NCBI GenBank assembly: GCA_032164245.1
Contig: JAVMKO010000001.1
Coordinates: forward strand, 65,640,892 to 65,704,891
DNA length: 64,000 bases
Reading direction: 5' to 3'
From: Sternotherus odoratus
Taxonomy: Eukaryota > Chordata > Testudines > Kinosternidae
The notes below the pieces were generated by a model. That model was not told the origin of the DNA and did not search any database. It worked only from the letters and a program-made list of their open reading frames with translations. The position numbers and the translations under genes are program-made. Positions 1,874 to 64,000 of the stretch are shown here, piece by piece; the first letter of the stretch is position 1; every line of letters starts with the position of its first letter.

Positions 1874-3220
1874 GTTTGCATTTCTTATCTGGCAAAATCC
1901 ACAGTGACTTAATTGTGTTTTCCCTAAGTAATTACAGCAGGATTTAGTCCACATGGACTGTTTTGATCAGACTGTTTCTGTAAGTACACAAGAATGGCAC
2001 AAATATAAGATCATCCACTTGGGTACCTAAGGATGCCAGATAAAACACTGTGTGACATTATACTATATTATTTGTGAAACGGTATGTTATTATACAATTA
2101 ATAACAGCATCGTAATGCATATGGACAAGGGAGGAAAATTAAAGTTGTGTGTTCAAACTTTGTTTTTTCCTGACTTTTAATACTTAGTCACATGATCTTA
2201 ATTTAGCATTAACCTTTTTTTCTGTTTAATTAGCCTGAACCATCACCACTGGAAACACTGTACTGTTCTTTTGTTTGGTGGGTGGAGGGGGTGGGTGGGA
2301 ATCTGCTGACAGCCCTGCCTAATTAGTTGTAAAGTGGTTAAGAAGATGAGAATGTATTACAGCAAATTGAAATTATTTCTAACTCTACTTTGAAAGATTA
2401 ACAGTGGCATCTCAATGTGAGAAAAACAATCCAGTATGAGACAAGCCCTGGAGAGCTCTTGAATACCTAAAAAGACAGGAAATCAATAAGGGCCATAATT
2501 ATTGGCACAGAGATGTAATGAAGTGTAAAAACTTTGGTGTAACAACAAATTAAAACTCCATTAGTGTCCTGGGGTAACAGAGGAACAAAAAAATGATTCG
2601 TAAAGATTACAATAATCTGTCCCTTCCCCTCTCCCCACGCATATCCTGCTGTTAATTCAACTAGCCTTCTTTATGTAAGAAATAGATGAGGAAGTCTTTT
2701 AACAGTAATTTTAATGTGGAGTTAAGACTTATTGCATAGCAAACCTAACTTTTTAATACTGTCCATCTTGAAACAATATTTTAAATTAGTAACAAATATC
2801 ATTTAAAGAATTTGGGAGTTGATATGGGAGAATGTTACTGGCAGGTTAATTGGGTTCATATTTTGAAAGGTTTGCTCTAAATTGGCTAGTCTCTCTCTCT
2901 TCCCCCCCCTCCCCCGCCAGAGCTAGTCTTTGAAGCTATTGACATTGGGCCTGATCCTGAGAGGTGGAAAATATCTTCAGCTCCGAATGACAGTAATGAG
3001 CATTGTAGGTCTTCTCAAAACCAGGGTCAGTAGTTAAACCTGTCAAGATATTCGTAATCTACCTAAAATGAATAACATGGGCCTGGCAAAGATTGCTACC
3101 TCTGCCAGTGAAATTATCGTGCCTCTTGTCTTACTCAACATGCATACTTGTAGAGGCAACTTTGCAATTTATTATTGTCTTTTTTGTTCTCATGTAAATT
3201 GAGCTTCTGACTGTGTCAGT
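1874..3220. other. AT-rich intergenic sequence, no gene
   Basis: There are only short low-complexity tracts here: T-rich near 2160-2225, and a CT/C run near 2891-2918. No open frame or repeat could be recognised. Confidence 0.45.
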
Positions 3221-3628
3221 ATTGTTTGCAGGGACAGCGACAGGGGTACTATGGGTAGAGCTGTACCGGGCCCCAGACTTTAGGGGGGCCCCGGTACACA
3301 GCAGTACCCGTAGTCATCCCCCCTTGTCGCCGGGCCTGGAGAGCGGGGAAGGGGCGGGGAGGCGGCGCGGCTCTCCTCCGGAGCGGACGAGCGCGCGTGT
3401 CCCCGGCAGGAGCAGTGAGCCCAGCTGGCGACAGCGGCGCAGTCCGGGGGAGAAAGTGCGTGGCGGGGGGGGGGGGGGGGAGCAGCAAGGTCGGCTCGTG
3501 CCGCCGCCAGCCGCTGTCAGCTGGGGGGGGAGCGCCGGCTGGGCTGGGGGGGGGCTGGCTGGGCTGGGGGGGCCCAAATGATCAGAGTAGGGGGCCCCCA
3601 AATTTCTGTCGCCAGCCCTGATTGTTTG
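3221..3628. mobile_element. Non-autonomous hAT-type transposon, GC-rich interior, exact 8-bp TSD
   Basis: The element 3229-3620 starts with cagggacagcgacag and ends with ctgtcgccagccctg, imperfect terminal inverted repeats of about 15 bp. It is flanked by the exact 8-bp duplication attgtttg (3221-3228 and 3621-3628), diagnostic of hAT-type insertion. The interior is strongly G+C and CpG rich, with a 13-G run near 3468, and encodes no transposase. Open frames in it are GC-rich chance frames. The 3' terminal block (3583-3620) recurs at 28351-28390. Confidence 0.85.
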
Positions 3629-4315
3629 CTATGACATTGTTGCATATATATTTTCCTTGTCCTCCACGGGTATAGAGAATGTATTTTTTTAATAATTAAT
3701 TTATTCTGATGCCTGTTACCACAACTATACTACAGAAGCTAATGACCTGAAGTGGAAGATCAGTGACAACACGCTCACTCTATGCGCCTTGACTACAGGA
3801 ACAATCTATATAGTCATATAATGAGTCCTAAACATTGAAGCCTTTTATTAGATGTACACAGGGATAGGCTTACCAAAGCACTTTCATTTGAGACAATAGT
3901 ATGGCACCAACAACAAGGTAAACATACAATCATTGCATTAGGTAAATTACCACCCTGGGAAAGTAGGAACCACATTACTTTCCCAAGGTATAGCTCTTTG
4001 CTAATAATATGCTGTTAGAATAAAATAAGAAAAACAAAGTAAAAAAAAACCAAGAGTGCAGTGTTTAAATCAGCATTTTTGGAGAGAAAGATTAGGGACA
4101 TTGCATAGGAGAGTTGCCTCTAAGTAATCAGTTTTAAGAGCACAGGTCAGTAGTGGACAAAATGTATCAGCTGATGGCTGTTTGGGGGAGCATATGAAAT
4201 GAGTTGGGGTTCTTAGTTCAGTTTACTGATGGATGTGTCCACAGCACCAAAAAGAGCATTGGAATTAGTAACCTAATGTCTATACTATATCTTTCCTGGG
4301 AATAAACATTCTATT

Positions 4316-7139: not shown

Positions 7140-7368
7140 GCCCCGGTCATGTTCCTTGCTGCTGGGACCCGGGCGGGCGGGTTGACGGCTCCCGACTGCC
7201 GTGATAAGTAAAACATCGATATAACGGACTAATTCGGGCAAGGGGGTGTCCGTTAAAGCCGAAAGTCCTGTTATTTAATAATTTTAAAAAATTATTAAAT
7301 AACGGACTTTCGACTTTAACGGACACCCCCTTGCCCGAATTAGTCCGTTATATCGAGGTTTTACTGTA
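7140..7368. mobile_element. Tigger/pogo-like foldback MITE with GC-rich flank
   Basis: 7207-7365 is an almost complete palindrome with arms of about 80 bp. The arms contain ataacggactaattcggg and tgtccgttaaag, and the ends read agtaaaac...gttttactgta. CAGTAAAACC-type ends with TA duplications are typical of pogo/Tigger non-autonomous elements. A GC-rich stretch (7140-7203, containing gctgctgggacccgggcggg) directly abuts the left end. Comparable GC-rich stretches lie next to the related copies at 28391 and 51226, so this seems to be family architecture rather than chance. Confidence 0.7.
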
Positions 7369-12780: not shown

Positions 12781-14190
12781 AAAAATATAATGCTGGCAAG
12801 GGTTGCATGACAATTCTTGTGGTTTCACTTTGCTTCCCTATCAGAAAGTCATTTTTCTGCAGGGAAACAAAGAAATCTGTGGGGGACATAAATTCTGTAC
12901 ATGCACAGTGGCTCAGAACTCCTCCAGGCATAATTAACTGTAACCTTATTGAATTAATTTTAACATTGTTTGAGTTTATTGAATTAAAATACAATTGTGT
13001 ATTTGCTCTTGTGTATTTGCTCTTATATATTTTCATATATTTCCATGGGAAGGGTAACGGAACTAGCAAGAGGTGATTAGGCAAATTAACTCAGGTTGTA
13101 ACATCACCAGAGAAGGCATCTCCCTGGAAAGGTATGGATATGCTAGTTCAAACTGGATTCTCTAGGGACCAATTGACAAAGAAAGGAGTTTTGGATAGAT
13201 AGTCTAGTTTTAAATTGGCTCAAGTCCTTCTTCCAGATTCAGCAAACAGACGGGATCCCTTGTTCATGGAGGCCCCAGTCCTTAAGGTAAGCTTGGAAGG
13301 AGTTAGCCTATCAAGGAGCTCATAAATATAGGAGCTTGTTCTGAGCTAAAGTTGTGAAAAACTTGTAACCGCAAGGAATCCCTTTGGGAAGGGGTTTGAA
13401 GGCCTACTCCTGCCAGAATCCACGTCAGCACTGGGGTTAATACTGTTAAGCATAGTAGCATGCATATAGGCCATTTTATTCCTTTCAATATGTTTTTTTC
13501 TGTAATGCTTTTTACTTTAAGAATAAAATAGGCTTTCAGAGGAAGTCATAAATAGTTATTTTATTACTAAAACATGATCTTTGTGGATACTGTCAGATAA
13601 TTCCCTTTTCCAATAAAAAATCTGCTAAGTAGTTCATGTACAATAATAGAAAAAAACCCCACCATTCTCTACTTTTCTTTTCAAAGTCCTTTGGGAATAA
13701 TGTCAAAGGGCATTACCATTTGATTAATGTCACCAGAACAATATTGCTCTTTTCTGACAGCGTTTTATGATTCAGGTCACTTGTCTGAACTATACGGAAT
13801 GGCTTTGTCAAGTGCACAAAACATTTTTAAGACTATAGAAATGTGGGCTTTTTTTTAAGTGAATCATCCTCAAATGTTTATTTTCACTCTTTCTTCAAGT
13901 GCATGTGGAAACAGTTTAAACCTATAGGAATCAATTCAAACTTGAATGATGTAGTAGTATTCATAAATATTCCATAAAGGAAACATGTAAATAATGCATT
14001 TGGAGGCATATAAAGATGCCATCAGAAAAAGCAAATGGATTTACTTCAAATCCTTTATGCACTTTTTTTTATTGAAGCTGCTTGTTAAATAATTGAAAGC
14101 AAAGCAAAAACAATCATAAATGAAAATCTACAAATGCTATTATAATTGTAGTCAGCAAAGTATAAAATGATTGTTTACAGCTAGTAGAAA
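12781..14190. other. AT-rich intergenic sequence, no gene
   Basis: Nothing recognisable. The stretch sits between two GC-rich repeat blocks. Confidence 0.4.
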
Positions 14191-14601
14191 GTCTTCTCCC
14201 CACGCCCCAGTGCCTGACTCAGCCCCGGCCCCGCTGCGCCGGGCTCTCCCCGGCCACTCATGTCTGGCACGCAGGCCCCGGCCCTCCCTCCGCCACAGCC
14301 CGCTGGCTCCCCCGCTCCATTCATCCAGCCTCCCCCCCCCTCCCCCCGGTCGGTCTCCCGCTGCTCGCACCCTGCCCCGCACGGGCCTACGTGGGGCGTC
14401 CACTGGGTCCCGCTGCTCCAGACGCGACTCCTGGGAGGGCAAGGTGGAGCGACTCGCCCCCAGCCCTCAGGGAGACGCTCTGGGGCAGCACCGCACCTGC
14501 GCACTCCCACTGCCACGTTGGTCCAGCCCGCAGATTTTCGAGACCCGCCTGCGGGCCGGACGGAATGATTTGGCCCGCAGGCCGGAGGTTCCCCACCCCT
14601 G
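14191..14601. mobile_element. hAT-like GC-rich repeat, right end only
   Basis: The right end ggaggttccccacccctg (ending 14601) is a typical hAT terminus (CAGGGGTGGGGAACC in reverse). The interior is C-rich and CpG-rich. The left terminus is not evident, so the start is approximate and the copy is probably 5'-truncated. The 152-codon frame inside is proline- and arginine-rich by composition and is not called as a gene. Confidence 0.55.
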
Positions 14602-14604
14602 GCT

Positions 14605-14727
14605 TAGGGTGACCAGACAGCAAATGTGAAAAATTGGGACGGGGGTGGGAGGTAATAGGAACCTATATAAGAAAAAGACCCAAAAATCGGGAATGTCCCT
14701 ATAAAATTGGGACATCTGGTCACCCTA
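14605..14727. mobile_element. Short MITE 'gggtgaccagac', TA target site
   Basis: 14607-14725 begins gggtgaccagacag and ends tctggtcaccc, a clear terminal inverted repeat, with TA on both sides (14605-14606 and 14726-14727). It is 119 bp and non-coding. The TA duplication points to the Tc1/mariner superfamily. It abuts the hAT end at 14601. A degraded piece of the Penelope module (gtgggctagaacctacttc, from 14729) follows it. Confidence 0.75.
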
Positions 14728-28350: not shown

Positions 28351-28390
28351 ATCAGAGTAGGTGGCCCCCAAATTTATGTCGCCAGCCCTG
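28351..28390. mobile_element. hAT terminal remnant (same family as 3229-3620)
   Basis: atcagagtaggtggccccca through gccagccctg matches the last 40 bp of the hAT at 3229-3620 with few changes. No left half is present. It is joined directly to the Tigger-type GC-rich segment that follows. Confidence 0.7.
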
Positions 28391-28658
28391 GTCCCAGCAG
28401 CCGGGACCCAGGCAGGCTGGCTGACGGATCCCGGCTGCCACCCGTGTCCCAGCAGCCGGGACTCCGGCGGGCTTGCTGCCGGCTCCTGGCTGCCACCCGG
28501 GTCCCGACAGTGGGTGGGCTGCGGAGTTGCCGCCCCAACCCTGTGGCGGTCGGGCTGCTGCTCCGACAGCTCGTTTTTTTATTATTAGATAACGGACTTT
28601 TTCATTTAACGGACACCTCCTCGCCCGAATTAGTCCGTTAAATGGAGGTTTTACTGTA
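28391..28658 (+). mobile_element. Tigger/pogo-like element, right half with GC-rich interior
   Basis: The right end carries ataacggactttttcattta, gaattagtccgtt and gaggttttactgta (TIR end about 28656), matching the right arm of the palindromes at 7207-7365 and 51278-51438. The GC-rich portion (28391-28560) repeats phrases such as cccagcagccgggac and ggctgccacccg. The left arm of the palindrome is missing. Confidence 0.65.
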
Positions 28659-49693: not shown

Positions 49694-50644
49694 CTCTATG
49701 TCGTGATTTTATGTGTGGCAAGTAAGGGTATGAAAGAAAGCACACTAGCCTGCAAGTCAATAAGTCACACTGTGCCCCCACTACTGTGCACTAAGTATTC
49801 TGTGGGGTGCTTTATCCTACTGCTGTTTAAGTGCACTATGGAATGTTTAGTGCATGGTAGGAGGGGCCACATGGTAACTTAATGTATAGTAGGCAAATGT
49901 GCTTTATATTTACATCGGGTTTGCAATGCACTAAGTCACTGTTCAGACAAGCCCTAAGAAAGAAGGATCATGATATCTCATGTACTGCTTTATGGTGGAC
50001 TTTGACAGATGTTACCTTTATTAGAAGGACTGCAGTATCTTGTTTTTATGCATGCCATGTTGTACTGGAATTTCACTGGTTATACTCATTAGATATTACA
50101 AAATATCCATTGTATCGCATCTTGATCTTTGCTACAGCTCCTCCTTTTTCAAACTCTCTGCTTCCTTATAAGCACAACATAAACTTTATAGACAGTCGAC
50201 AATCCCAGTGAAATGAGAAGAGAAGCAGTCAAATTAGTATTTACAAATCAAACTTATAGGAATATTATTCTGATAATGCCAGCTAATGGGACACAAAACT
50301 TTTTGTGCTTTTGCATACCTCCAGTCCCTAAATTAACAGAAAACAATTGCTATAGTATAATCTCTGGATATACAGTAAACCCTCGATTTAACGGACCCCG
50401 ATTTAACGGACTTCGGATGCAACGGACAAAATTTCCGATGCATCCGAAATCCGTTATTAGGGGGCTGCCGGCGGGGGAGCCGGTCGGGAACTGTCACCTC
50501 CTCCCCCGCCCGGCTCCCCGCAGCGGGGAGCCGGGCGGGTGGGCTGACAGGGGCTGACAGGGAGCCGGGCGGGTGGGCTGACAGGGGGCGGGCGGGGAGC
50601 CGCGCCGGGCGGAGGCAGCGGCGAGAGCAGCCGGCGGGGCGAGG

Positions 50645-50840
50645 ATGGTGCGGCGGCTGCTCTGGCTGCTGCGGCGGCTGCTCTGGCTGCTGCTGGCCGG
50701 GCAGGCGCGGCGGGCTCGGCGGGGGCAGTGCTGAGCGCCGAGCTGCGCGGCGAGCCGGCGCGGGAGGTGAGCCCGGCTTTCCTCTCCCTCACCATCGACG
50801 CCAACCTGGCCGCGGACCCCCGCTTCATCGCCGTGCTGGG
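50645..50840 (+). pseudogene. HPSE: Heparanase (HPSE)-like exon 1, frameshifted
   Basis: ATG at 50645 opens a leucine- and arginine-rich signal-peptide-like stretch ([19 protein letters not shown]) that hits a stop at 50732-50734. In a different frame, from about 50728 to 50840, the sequence encodes VLSAELRGE and then [20 protein letters not shown] (50767-50826), ending IAVLG. This closely matches the N-terminus of vertebrate heparanase, the endo-beta-glucuronidase that cleaves heparan sulfate, and fits HPSE better than HPSE2. It is followed at 50841 by a GTGAGT donor. A single indel between signal and mature parts breaks the frame. No further heparanase exon was recognised by eye in the window. 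Confidence 0.72.
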
Positions 50841-50846
50841 GTGAGT
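50841..50846 (+). other. Splice donor site GTGAGT after heparanase-like exon
   Basis: GG|GTGAGT matches the vertebrate U1 donor consensus, exactly where heparanase similarity ends. Retention of the donor and of intron-like sequence beyond it shows the copy came from genomic DNA, not from spliced mRNA. Confidence 0.65.
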
Positions 50847-51034
50847 GACCGGCCGCCCCGCGTCTCCCTCCCCCGTCGCTGGAAGACGGGGCCAGCTAAG
50901 GGGGGGAGCGGCTGTGACCCTCCCCTTGTGTAGCCGCCGACCCGGCCAGGTCAGAGGGGAGCTAGAGTCCGTCCACGCCCCCCCCCTCTAAGCAACCTCC
51001 CGAGTCCCGCCAGCCCCATGGAAAGTGTGTCTGT

Positions 51035-51035
<1 letters not shown>

Positions 51036-51115
<80 letters not shown>
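51036..51115. repeat. (AC)n microsatellite, about 40 units
   Basis: Uninterrupted AC dinucleotide array of 80 bp within the intron-like part of the heparanase-carrying element. Expected to be highly length-variable. Confidence 0.98.
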
Positions 51116-51118
<3 letters not shown>

Positions 51119-51277
51119 CGTCCCAGCCGGGGGACCCTGCCCTGCTCTCTGCAGTCTTGGACTTGCAGGCTGCCCAGCTCCCTGCGATCGCCCCAGTCTG
51201 CCCGCTGACCATGCCTGTGCTTCACTTTCCCGCTGCGGGGAGCCGGCGGGGGGGCTGACAGCTCGCTCCCGGCCGAT

Positions 51278-51438
51278 CAGTAAAACCTCTATATAACGGA
51301 CTAATTCGGGTGAGGGGGGTGTCCTTTAAAGCCAAAAGTCCGTTATTTAATTATTTAAAAAAATTATTAAATAACGGACTTTTGGCTTTAACGGACACCC
51401 CCTCGCCCGAATTAGTCCGTTAAATCGAGGTTTCACTG
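51278..51438. repeat. Tigger-type foldback unit inside the composite element
   Basis: Starts cagtaaaacctctatataac and ends gaggtttcactg. The two halves (about 75-80 bp) are inverted repeats with ggactaattcggg...gtccgttatttaat and its complement. Equivalent to 7207-7365. The left edge is not preceded by TA, unlike the outer ends of the composite. Confidence 0.8.
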
Positions 51439-51750
51439 TATATAAGATCTGTAGCTAAAATGTAGGAACATTTTTGGTCTCACATTTTGTTTAAATTAAT
51501 GAAACAAAACACATCTTAAAACTAAAAAATTTCAGCAACATAGTGTAGATTTTGGTTCAAACTAAGAAACAAGTTTTATTTGAAGACTGTAACAGTGGTG
51601 AATTTCAACCAATAAGTATGCATGTTTTAGATTGTTTCCCCAAAAATATTAGTTTGTATTTTCTCAAGTAGAATTGTATTTTATTATTTTATGCTTAGTT
51701 TTAACCACTTGATAATGTTTTATATTATTTCTTTGCTCTCACTCGAAGGG

Positions 51751-51920
51751 GGAGGGATAGCTCAGTGGTTTGAGAATTGCCCTCCTAAACCCAGGGTTGT
51801 GAGTTTAATCCTTGAGGGGGGCATTTAGGGATATGGAGCAAAAATAGGGATTGGTCCTGCTTTGAGCAGGGGGATGGACTAGATGATCTTCTGAGGTCCC
51901 TTCCAACTCTGAGATTCTAG
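51751..51920 (+). mobile_element. Turtle tRNA-derived SINE (Cry/Pol III SINE)
   Basis: A tRNA-like head, ggagggatagctcagtggtt (box A tagctcagtgg), leads to ggttgtgagtttaatcc (box B). The body is ggggcatttagggatatgg...attggtcctgctttgagcag, and the CR1-like tail is ggactagatgatcttctgag...gtcccttccaactctgagat. This is the diagnostic SINE layout of cryptodiran turtles, mobilised by CR1-type LINEs. No TSD, as usual for CR1-driven SINEs. Confidence 0.9.
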
Positions 51921-52069: not shown

Positions 52070-52991
52070 GGTTAGATCAGGGGTCTCAAACTCAAATGAC
52101 CATGAGGGCCACATGAGGATTAGCCCGAGGGCTGAATCGCTGACATCTTGCCCCCGGCCCCACCCCCCTTTCCATGAGGCCCTGCCCCTACCCCGTCTCT
52201 CTTCCCAGTCCCCATTCCAACCCCTTCCATGAAACCCCCACTCCAACTCCTCCCCCTCCCTACCCACAGGGAGTGCAGGAGGGGTGTGGGTTGTGGCAGG
52301 GGTTCAGGGCAGGGAGTTGATGTGCAGGATGTGGCAGGGGGCTCAAGGCAGGGAATTGGGATGCAGGAGGGTTATGGGGTGTGGCAGGGGCTCAGGGCAG
52401 GGAGTTGGAGTGTGGGGTTCAGGAGGGTTGAGGGGTGCATCAGGGGGCGCAGGGCAGGGGGTTGGGGAGCACGAGGGGCCATAGGGTTACCATTTGTGTC
52501 TGGGAGGAATTTTTAAATATGTAAAAACCAGGATTTTAATCATTCAAAACAGTGAATGGTGGGACTTACCCCACTGCAGCCTGCTGCTGCTAAATCTGAA
52601 TGCGCTGAGGCTAGAGCTGCCCCCAGAGCTGCTGCCTGTGATGGCAGCAGCGCAGGCTCCACACCGGGACAGCCCTGCCCTCAGCAGTGCTCTTGCTGAA
52701 AGCGGTCGGGGGAAGAGGGGTTGCAGCAGCAACCCTGGGGAGCTGCCCACCCACATGCATCACCCGCATGCATCGCCCCACAACCAAGTCCCTCCAGTCA
52801 CCGCAGGACGGAAAGCTGCGGCAGGGGATTGCAGGCCTTGGAGCAGGGGGTCGCTCGCTCCCGCCCAAGCCTGATGAGCCAGCCAGAGATGCAGTGGGGG
52901 GGAGCCACAGGGAGTGTGGTGGACCGCAGAAAAGAGCCTCATGGGCCGCATGGGGCCCCCGGGCCACGTGTTTGAGACCCCTGGGTTAGGT
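52070..52991. mobile_element. Non-autonomous hAT-type transposon, 906 bp
   Basis: The element 52078-52983 starts caggggtctcaaactc and ends gtttgagacccctg. The flanks ggttagat (52070-52077) and ggttaggt (52984-52991) match at 7 of 8 bases. The interior is GC-rich, with a G-rich degenerate minisatellite of 'gtggcaggggctcagggcagg' type at 52266-52470. The frames of 60-126 codons lie in this composition and have no transposase signature. Confidence 0.85.
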
Positions 52992-62900: not shown

Positions 62901-63084
62901 AATCAATTACATTAACAAAGTTACCTTTAAGTTTTCAGAAAACTCATTCTGTACTCCAAGGGTAAGTACTTTAATTTTGGGGTGGATAGGCTGTATTCTT
63001 CATACATAAAATGATTAAATTCCTACTTTAAGTTCAAAACTCAACTCAGTTTCAGCTATGTCACTGTTACCAACACCTTCATAA
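59953..63084. other. AT-rich intergenic DNA, no gene
   Basis: No supportable gene or repeat. The frames at 60940-61321 are unrecognised. Confidence 0.4.
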
Positions 63085-63300
63085 TCTATATATATAAAAG
63101 TCAAGTGGTGTATGTATGTATGTATGACAGCGAACTCCTCCCGCACCGTTTGAGCCAGAGACTTGAAATTTGGTACAGTGAGGAGTCTTGGGGTCTAGAT
63201 GCTGGTAAGGGTCGAAAAATTTTCAGATCTCACCTCTGACTTCCCCCAGGGGTGAAAGTCTTTCAGGGCCAATCACATCGGCTGGGCGGTTAGGTGGTGA
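63085..63300 (+). mobile_element. Helitron-like 5' terminal region (tentative)
   Basis: tctatatatataaaagtcaa after an A (63084), then a GTAT microsatellite and gcgaactcctcccgcaccgt, gagccagagacttgaaattt and ggtac. The TC start with an A/T insertion context, and the 'gaaatttggtac' phrase, resemble the 5' region of some animal Helitrons. No Rep/helicase or CTRR end is visible in the window, so the call is weak. Confidence 0.35.
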
Positions 63301-63354
63301 TGATGTCATAATACCCCCTCCAACAGACACCACACTCGCTCAGCTCGCCCCTCC

Positions 63355-63510
63355 CTCCTCCAACGGAACCCCGGAGATCCCTGAGTTCTCTGCCCCTCCC
63401 CCCTCCCAATGGAACCCCGGAGATCCCTCAGTTCTCTGCCCCTCCCACCTGCGAAGGTCCCCGGAATCCCTCAGCTCTGGGCCCCCTCCCCGCCTGCGAC
63501 GGATCCCAGT
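63355..63510. repeat. C-rich tandem repeat, about 44-46 bp period
   Basis: ggaaccccggagatccctga starts at 63365 and 63411 (spacing 46), followed by a diverged copy near 63453 (gaaggtccccggaatccctc). The unit includes gttctctgcccctccc. Confidence 0.7.
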
Positions 63511-63524
63511 TGGGTTTGGTGGGA

Positions 63525-64000
63525 CGGTAAGTGAGGTGAGGGTGTCGGGTTCGGTCAGGGGGTGAGGTGGGAGTGTCGGGTTTGCTTGGGGGGGTCAGGT
63601 GGGGGTGTCGGGTTTGGTCGGGGGGGTACGTGAGCCGGGGGGTGTCGGGGTTGGTCTGGGGGGGTGGGAAGGTGTTGGGGTGGGTGAGGGGTGAGGTGTG
63701 GGTGTTGGGTTTGGTCTGGGGGGGGGAAGGTGTCGGGGTGGGTGCCCAGACCAAACCCGACACACCCCCGGCTCACTTACCCCCCGACCAAACCCGACAC
63801 CCCCACCTCACCCCCCCACCAACCGCAAAACCCCCTGACCAACCCCAACACCCACACCTCACCCCTCACCCACCCCGACAACTTCCCACCCCCCCAGACC
63901 AAACCCAACACCCGCCCGGCTCACGGTGCACTGTGTAGCACACAGATTATTAAATACACTGTTCGGTCGGCGGGTGAGGTGGGGGTGTCGGGTTTGCTCA
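63525..64000. repeat. G-rich/C-rich minisatellite in inverted arrangement
   Basis: From 63525 to about 63746 the plus strand carries 'ggtgtcgggtttggtcgggg' units about 31-37 bp apart (gtgtcggg at 63542, 63573, 63605, 63642). From 63747 to about 63925 the same unit appears as its complement. From 63960 the G-rich orientation returns and runs off the window. The frames through it are repeat translations. Confidence 0.85.

Follow-up and report, generated by a model that had tools for sequence, protein, structure and literature searches.

How did the first exon of heparanase (HPSE) come to lie between the inverted ends of a DNA transposon in the turtle Sternotherus odoratus? We analysed a window of 64,000 nucleotides, i.e. 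the whole stretch from 65,640,892 to 65,704,891 of contig JAVMKO010000001.1 (assembly GCA_032164245.1), in which this arrangement occupies positions 50373-51438 (element A). A first-pass annotation had described inverted ends with TA on both sides, an exon with the N-terminus of the heparanase family, a GTGAGT donor followed by intron-like DNA, and matching GC-rich phrases on either side of the exon. All these observations hold on closer analysis. We conclude, with a probability of about 85%, that a Tigger/pogo-like element captured HPSE exon 1 and that the exon is cargo in one non-autonomous element.

Ends, inner blocks and relatives of the element

Element A is 1,066 bp long. Its left end is CAGTAAACCCTCGATTTAACGGAC and its right end the inverted counterpart, and the outermost 24 nt of the two ends agree at 22 positions in inverted orientation. 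A TA lies directly outside each end, the left one (50371-50372) forming a target-site duplication with the right one (51439-51440). A 2-bp site of this kind carries little weight by itself, and the sequence around the element is TA-rich. The 22-nt pattern of the terminal inverted repeat (TIR), CAGTRAAMCCTCGATTTAACGG, has six matches with at most three mismatches in the 64-kb window, against a mean of 0.00 over 100 shuffles. The two exact matches are the ends of element A, at 50373-50394 on the plus strand and at 51417-51438 on the minus strand. The other four correspond to the inner arm of its right palindrome (51278), to both arms of a related copy B (7206 and 7366) and to the right end of a related copy C (28656). 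In collections of viral and prokaryotic contigs the TIR pattern had no match, a result that has no bearing on turtles.

Between these ends the parts follow each other in a simple order. The left TIR with its subterminal hairpin (50373-50459, plus strand; arms 50404-50426 and 50434-50456) leads into a left GC-rich block (50460-50527, minus strand), which by alignment is an inverted copy of the right one. Direct GC-rich units, about 2.3 copies of 34 bp detected by TRF, occupy 50523-50602 on the plus strand, in the orientation of the right block, which the shuffle test supports. The HPSE part, also on the plus strand, comprises a presumed 5' UTR (50603-50644), the coding exon 1 (50645-50840) and the start of intron 1 (50841-51228). 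The UTR is placed in the interval between the last 34-bp unit and the ATG, and its junction with the GC units is approximate; the identity of the intron follows from the position of the donor. The right GC-rich block (51229-51277, plus strand) resembles both the left block and copy B (7158-7206). It is followed by the right 161 bp of the element (51278-51438, plus strand), a near-palindrome whose arms share 72 of 79 aligned positions and which contains the outer TIR (51415-51438). Part of the left GC block (50479-50527) pairs with the right one (51229-51273) as an inverted repeat of 79.6% identity over 49 bp, which is the pattern expected if HPSE lies within a single fold-back element.

The two related copies, both on the plus strand, lack HPSE. 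Copy B (7150-7366) consists of a GC unit and the palindrome, which matches that of element A at 146 of 159 aligned positions. Copy C (28389-28656, start approximate) has several GC units and the right terminal 76 bp, of which 69 match element A. Each has a TA outside its right end. A scan of the window found no TIR to the left of their GC units. Hence, these copies represent the right half of the family only, and the whole empty element is not among the copies of the window. Since both carry a GC unit with the right end and without the exon, the GC-rich blocks on either side of the exon are, by their sequence, part of the transposon. We also considered these repeats as part of a captured HPSE CpG island, and rejected this because they recur in the exon-less copies. 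The stretch abutting the GC units of copy C (28363-28390) has 27 of 28 bp in common with 3593-3620 (GGCCCCCAAATTT.TGTCGCCAGCCCTG), and resembles the terminus of a different GC-rich element (near 3230-3621).

We used dinucleotide shuffles to evaluate the similarity between GC-rich parts. The alignment of the right and left blocks scored 51, and the best of 500 shuffles scored 37 (0/500 reach the observed value). None of 500 shuffles reached the scores of the right block against copy B, of the left block against copy B, or of the left block against copy C, and 28 of 500 reached that of the right block against copy C, which is not significant. The controls gave mixed results. The score of the captured segment was reached by 0/200 shuffles against copy B, where a short GC stretch within the codons of the signal peptide accounts for the match, and by 75/200 against copy C. 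Two unrelated GC-rich stretches compared with the right block had their scores reached in 135/200 and 2/200 shuffles (the latter for 52100-52980). GC-rich DNA alone thus yields some high scores, so the case rests more on the shared junctions and on the order of the parts. For the captured segment, the repeat comparison disregarded matches below 90% identity and below 40 bp.

The tentative family assignment is based on the 24-nt outer TIR, the TA target site and the CAG ends, which we take to be of the pogo type. The TA site is common to Tc1/mariner elements in general. We saw no transposase in element A, and a Pfam search of 10 of the 47 window open reading frames of at least 110 aa gave no match. 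Tigger/pogo elements are described as having short TIRs (at most 40 bp in most families) and TA target sites (PMC7386202), and Tigger has been recorded from turtles (PMC9219625).

Other repeats lie close to element A. About 310 bp beyond it starts a tRNA-type SINE (GGGAGGGATAGCTCAGTGGTTTGAG..., about 51750-51920), presumably a turtle SINE, which, like the HPSE matches, agrees with a turtle source. A 906-bp hAT-like non-autonomous element (52078-52983) has 14-nt inverted ends (CAGGGGTCTCAAAC), an 8-bp target site matching at 7 of 8 positions (GGTTAGAT/GGTTAGGT) and a low CpG observed/expected ratio (0.27). Towards the right, behind a TCTATATATATAAAAG stretch, tandem GC-rich DNA at 63080-64000 repeats GTGTCGGGTTTGGTC-like units in both orientations; it is cut by the end of the window and is possibly a Helitron-like repeat. 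Around two further GC-rich stretches (3198-3700 and 14166-14629) there are no inverted repeats of at least 18 nt except a pair of G/C runs (2902-2919/3461-3478).

Identity and state of the heparanase exon

In the captured segment of about 626 bp, the first exon is followed by the donor and some 390 bp of intron-like sequence. The 38-aa peptide of 50728-50841 is identical to hawksbill HPSE at 36 of 38 positions (94.7%; tblastn, E = 2e-16). Across six turtle HPSE proteins, identity with the conserved frame ranges from 86.8 to 94.7% over these 38 aa, hawksbill and Pangshura being the best. The similarity extends to human HPSE, of which residues 47-76 are 70% identical to the exon peptide over 30 aa, and all six PDB sequences that match the peptide are heparanases. 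The exon frame alone has no Pfam match; the Pfam match in hawksbill HPSE begins only at residue 148. The peptide ends at the G before SPKLRTL, with which turtle HPSE continues at the point where the GTGAGT donor (50841-50846) starts. We take SPKLRTL to be the start of exon 2, by the boundary in the human HPSE gene, and the position of the donor fits this. The segment has both features of heparanase exon 1, the conserved N-terminal peptide and a donor at the presumed exon 1/2 boundary. A perfect (AC)40 lies in the intron-like stretch (51036-51115). A retrocopy was rejected because the donor and the intron-like DNA follow the exon.

No further part of the gene was found in the window. We searched the 64 kb by tblastn with human and six turtle HPSE proteins and found no other HPSE exon (remaining listed matches at E of at least 0.079), and the exon 2 motif LARGLSPAYLRFGG, with up to six substitutions in six frames, is absent as well. 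We then compared the exon with known proteins. None of the 2427 candidates of about 37-117 aa shares the 67-aa exon frame at E ≤ 0.001. Among 833 candidates of about 293-933 aa, six carry the exon, and these are six turtle heparanases, each with PF03662. Within the lengths searched, the exon was found in no protein other than HPSE. In a search with the human HPSE protein, the named proteins among the best 120 of 1330 matches were from mammals.

The exon copy looks dead as coding DNA. The peptide that starts at the HPSE start codon (50645) matches the start of hawksbill HPSE except for one residue and a 7-residue duplication, which corresponds to a tandem duplication of 21 bp within 50649-50693. 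This frame ends at a TGA after 29 codons, and the frame that follows (15 residues) is close to a stretch of Pangshura HPSE. Relative to turtle HPSE, there is a net loss of 1 bp (or a gain of 2 bp) between about 50705 and 50727. Because of the duplication and the net 1-bp loss, the start codon and the conserved part of the exon, which begins at 50728, are in different frames. Followed upstream, the conserved frame reaches a stop at 50545 with no ATG in between, so the start codon in frame that a working HPSE first exon has is missing. The first-pass annotation had proposed that, if other copies carry the exon, the element could have spread a promoter, signal peptide and donor. The signal-peptide part of this proposal fails for element A: its signal peptide is frameshifted, and as the sequence stands it cannot provide a normal HPSE leader or hand on one in frame. 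The frameshift could be an assembly or sequencing error in a GC-rich stretch.

Capture and its alternatives

The simplest alternative is that the exon never moved. It would be the genuine HPSE exon 1, or an HPSE pseudogene in place, and two pieces of the same transposon family would have inserted independently on each side. The exon, the donor and the start of the intron do resemble a real gene, and HPSE intron 1 could exceed the 13 kb left in the window. The right 161 bp may also be a small complete palindromic element, given that the TIR pattern occurs on its inner arm at 51278, as it does in copy B at 7206. However, there is no TA just outside the inner end of this palindrome, in element A or in copy B, and the junction between GC block and palindrome is common to both. 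The left end lacks a second terminus of its own; the sequences that pair with it in inverted orientation are found on the far side of the exon. Also against a gene in place, the GC blocks on the two sides of the exon are alike, the HPSE frame is broken, and the searches found no further HPSE exon in the window. We regard independent insertions around a resident exon as very unlikely.

Composite transposition would also place one family on both sides of the exon. Here, two neighbouring copies would have flanked the parental HPSE exon 1, and their outer ends would have moved all that lay between them. An end-bypass model with transposable elements linked to the parental copy is named by Tan et al. 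(PMC8277862). Yet each flank of the exon is half an element, so this route needs two matching truncations as well, whereas one element opened mid-way explains the structure in a single event. We scored it separately from the previous alternative, because its end product is the same captured unit, and we find it unlikely.

There is good support for capture by a single element, and with it for the proposal of the first-pass annotation that genomic DNA of a host gene was carried within a TIR element, from the two ends, the GC blocks in common, the exon-less relatives B and C and the lack of other HPSE exons in the window. The sequence of events would be as follows. A non-autonomous Tigger/pogo-like TIR transposon with inverted GC-rich inner blocks would have taken up about 626 bp of host HPSE, from the end of the 5' UTR through coding exon 1 and its donor into intron 1. 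We infer that the uptake most likely occurred through template switching into a palindrome-rich element that had broken or stalled, i.e. by gap filling or FoSTeS-like repair. The structure shows the chimera placed between TA target sites, as in a normal element. It probably transposed after the capture, since the parental exon 1 is absent within 50 kb to the left and 12.5 kb to the right of element A. Among Pack-TIRs, i.e. TIR elements carrying host DNA, 160 of 281 (56.9%) are reported within 15 kb of the parent, and multicopy ones far from it (PMC8277862); this pattern makes a later jump of the HPSE chimera likely without being a proof. The exon would now be decaying cargo. The CpG-rich upstream part and the donor would be the sole parts possibly still relevant, speculatively by giving a downstream gene an alternative first exon.

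Known gene-capturing elements and a possible promoter role

Captures of this type have been described in animals before. Among 100 animals, 55 had Pack-TIRs, 370 in all (Tan et al. 2021, PMC8277862). Of these elements, 115 are TcMariner and 38 come from the American alligator, and the authors show a gibbon Pack-Tigger1. The remark in the first-pass annotation that such elements are rarely described in vertebrates was thus overstated. The word 'turtle' is absent from the main text of that article, and a turtle, or this very case, may be among the 370. Our literature search returned no turtle Pack-TIR or pogo gene capture. For heparanase and transposons in turtles, the matches listed were, by title, papers on cell therapy, and neither the TIR letters nor turtle names had a match in PMC7325037.

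Element A can be compared with the published definition. The criteria of Tan et al. 2021 require that the parental copy be unique, lie elsewhere, share at least 90% identity and have no transposable elements beside it. They also include two ends of the same element around 100-5000 bp, which here enclose about 626 bp ('same element' resting on the window copies), and a captured segment other than an intronless retrocopy of a multi-exon gene, in agreement with the donor and intron-like DNA. As in other animal Pack-TIRs, host DNA lies between two ends of one TIR element, but the median captured length is 224 bp in the former (PMC8277862), and the turtle element is known here from one locus, set against HPSE proteins only. 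Exonic captures are enriched among animal Pack-TIRs, and the multicopy ones tend toward GC-rich captures, far from the parent (PMC8277862). Plant Pack-MULEs, as described in the same article, also have gene fragments between TIRs. They are Mutator-like, and a fly Pack-MULE has target sites of 9-10 bp and long TIRs (PMC8277862), in contrast to the 2-bp TA and CAG ends found here.

The closest parallel for the cargo is found among Helitrons. HelibatN3 elements of bats carry the NUBPL promoter, six N-terminal codons and a splice donor (PMC4778049). The type of cargo is alike, i.e. a host upstream region, a coding start and a splice donor. However, HelibatN3 is a rolling-circle Helitron subfamily with many copies and chimeric transcripts (PMC4778049), whereas the turtle element is known from the sequence of one locus and its leader is out of frame. 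From its sequence, element A would be classed as a Pack-TIR by structure and as HelibatN3-like by cargo.

Capture is compatible with a further possibility, that a multicopy Pack-Tigger family works as an exon trap, spreading the CpG-rich upstream region of HPSE together with exon 1 and the donor. The CpG observed/expected ratio is 0.95 in the presumed 5' UTR and exon (50603-50842) and 0.26 in the whole window, GGGCGG occurs five times in 50460-50644, and the donor is intact; bat HelibatN3 operates in a similar way (PMC4778049). Against this, the leader is out of frame in element A, the exon is missing from copies B and C, and the protein lengths searched gave the exon in heparanases only. An exon trap at work thus seems unlikely. 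The CpG values themselves vary across the window. They are low in other repeats (0.27 in 52100-52980 and 0.39 in 63300-63900) and raised in the GC-rich stretches 3198-3700 (0.68) and 14166-14629 (0.67). The ratios are 0.63 and 0.44 for the captured intron and 0.64-2.13 for those parts of element A and copies B and C that belong to the transposon itself. The high CpG may reflect only a young family or unmethylated DNA. A promoter role of the captured upstream part, putative as it is, is possible from its sequence. A scan of this part for bacterial promoters and terminators found none, a result of no weight for a eukaryote. It is doubtful, on our analysis, that a multicopy turtle family would act as the cut-and-paste counterpart of HelibatN3, seeding HPSE promoter DNA, first exon and donor genome-wide and supplying alternative first exons.

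The locus provides a clean one-locus case of a vertebrate TIR transposon that carries a host first exon and its donor, with two exon-less relatives for comparison. If the chimera is single-copy, it is one more Pack-TIR. If it has many copies, the family would test whether cut-and-paste elements, beyond Helitrons, distribute promoters and first exons in vertebrates.
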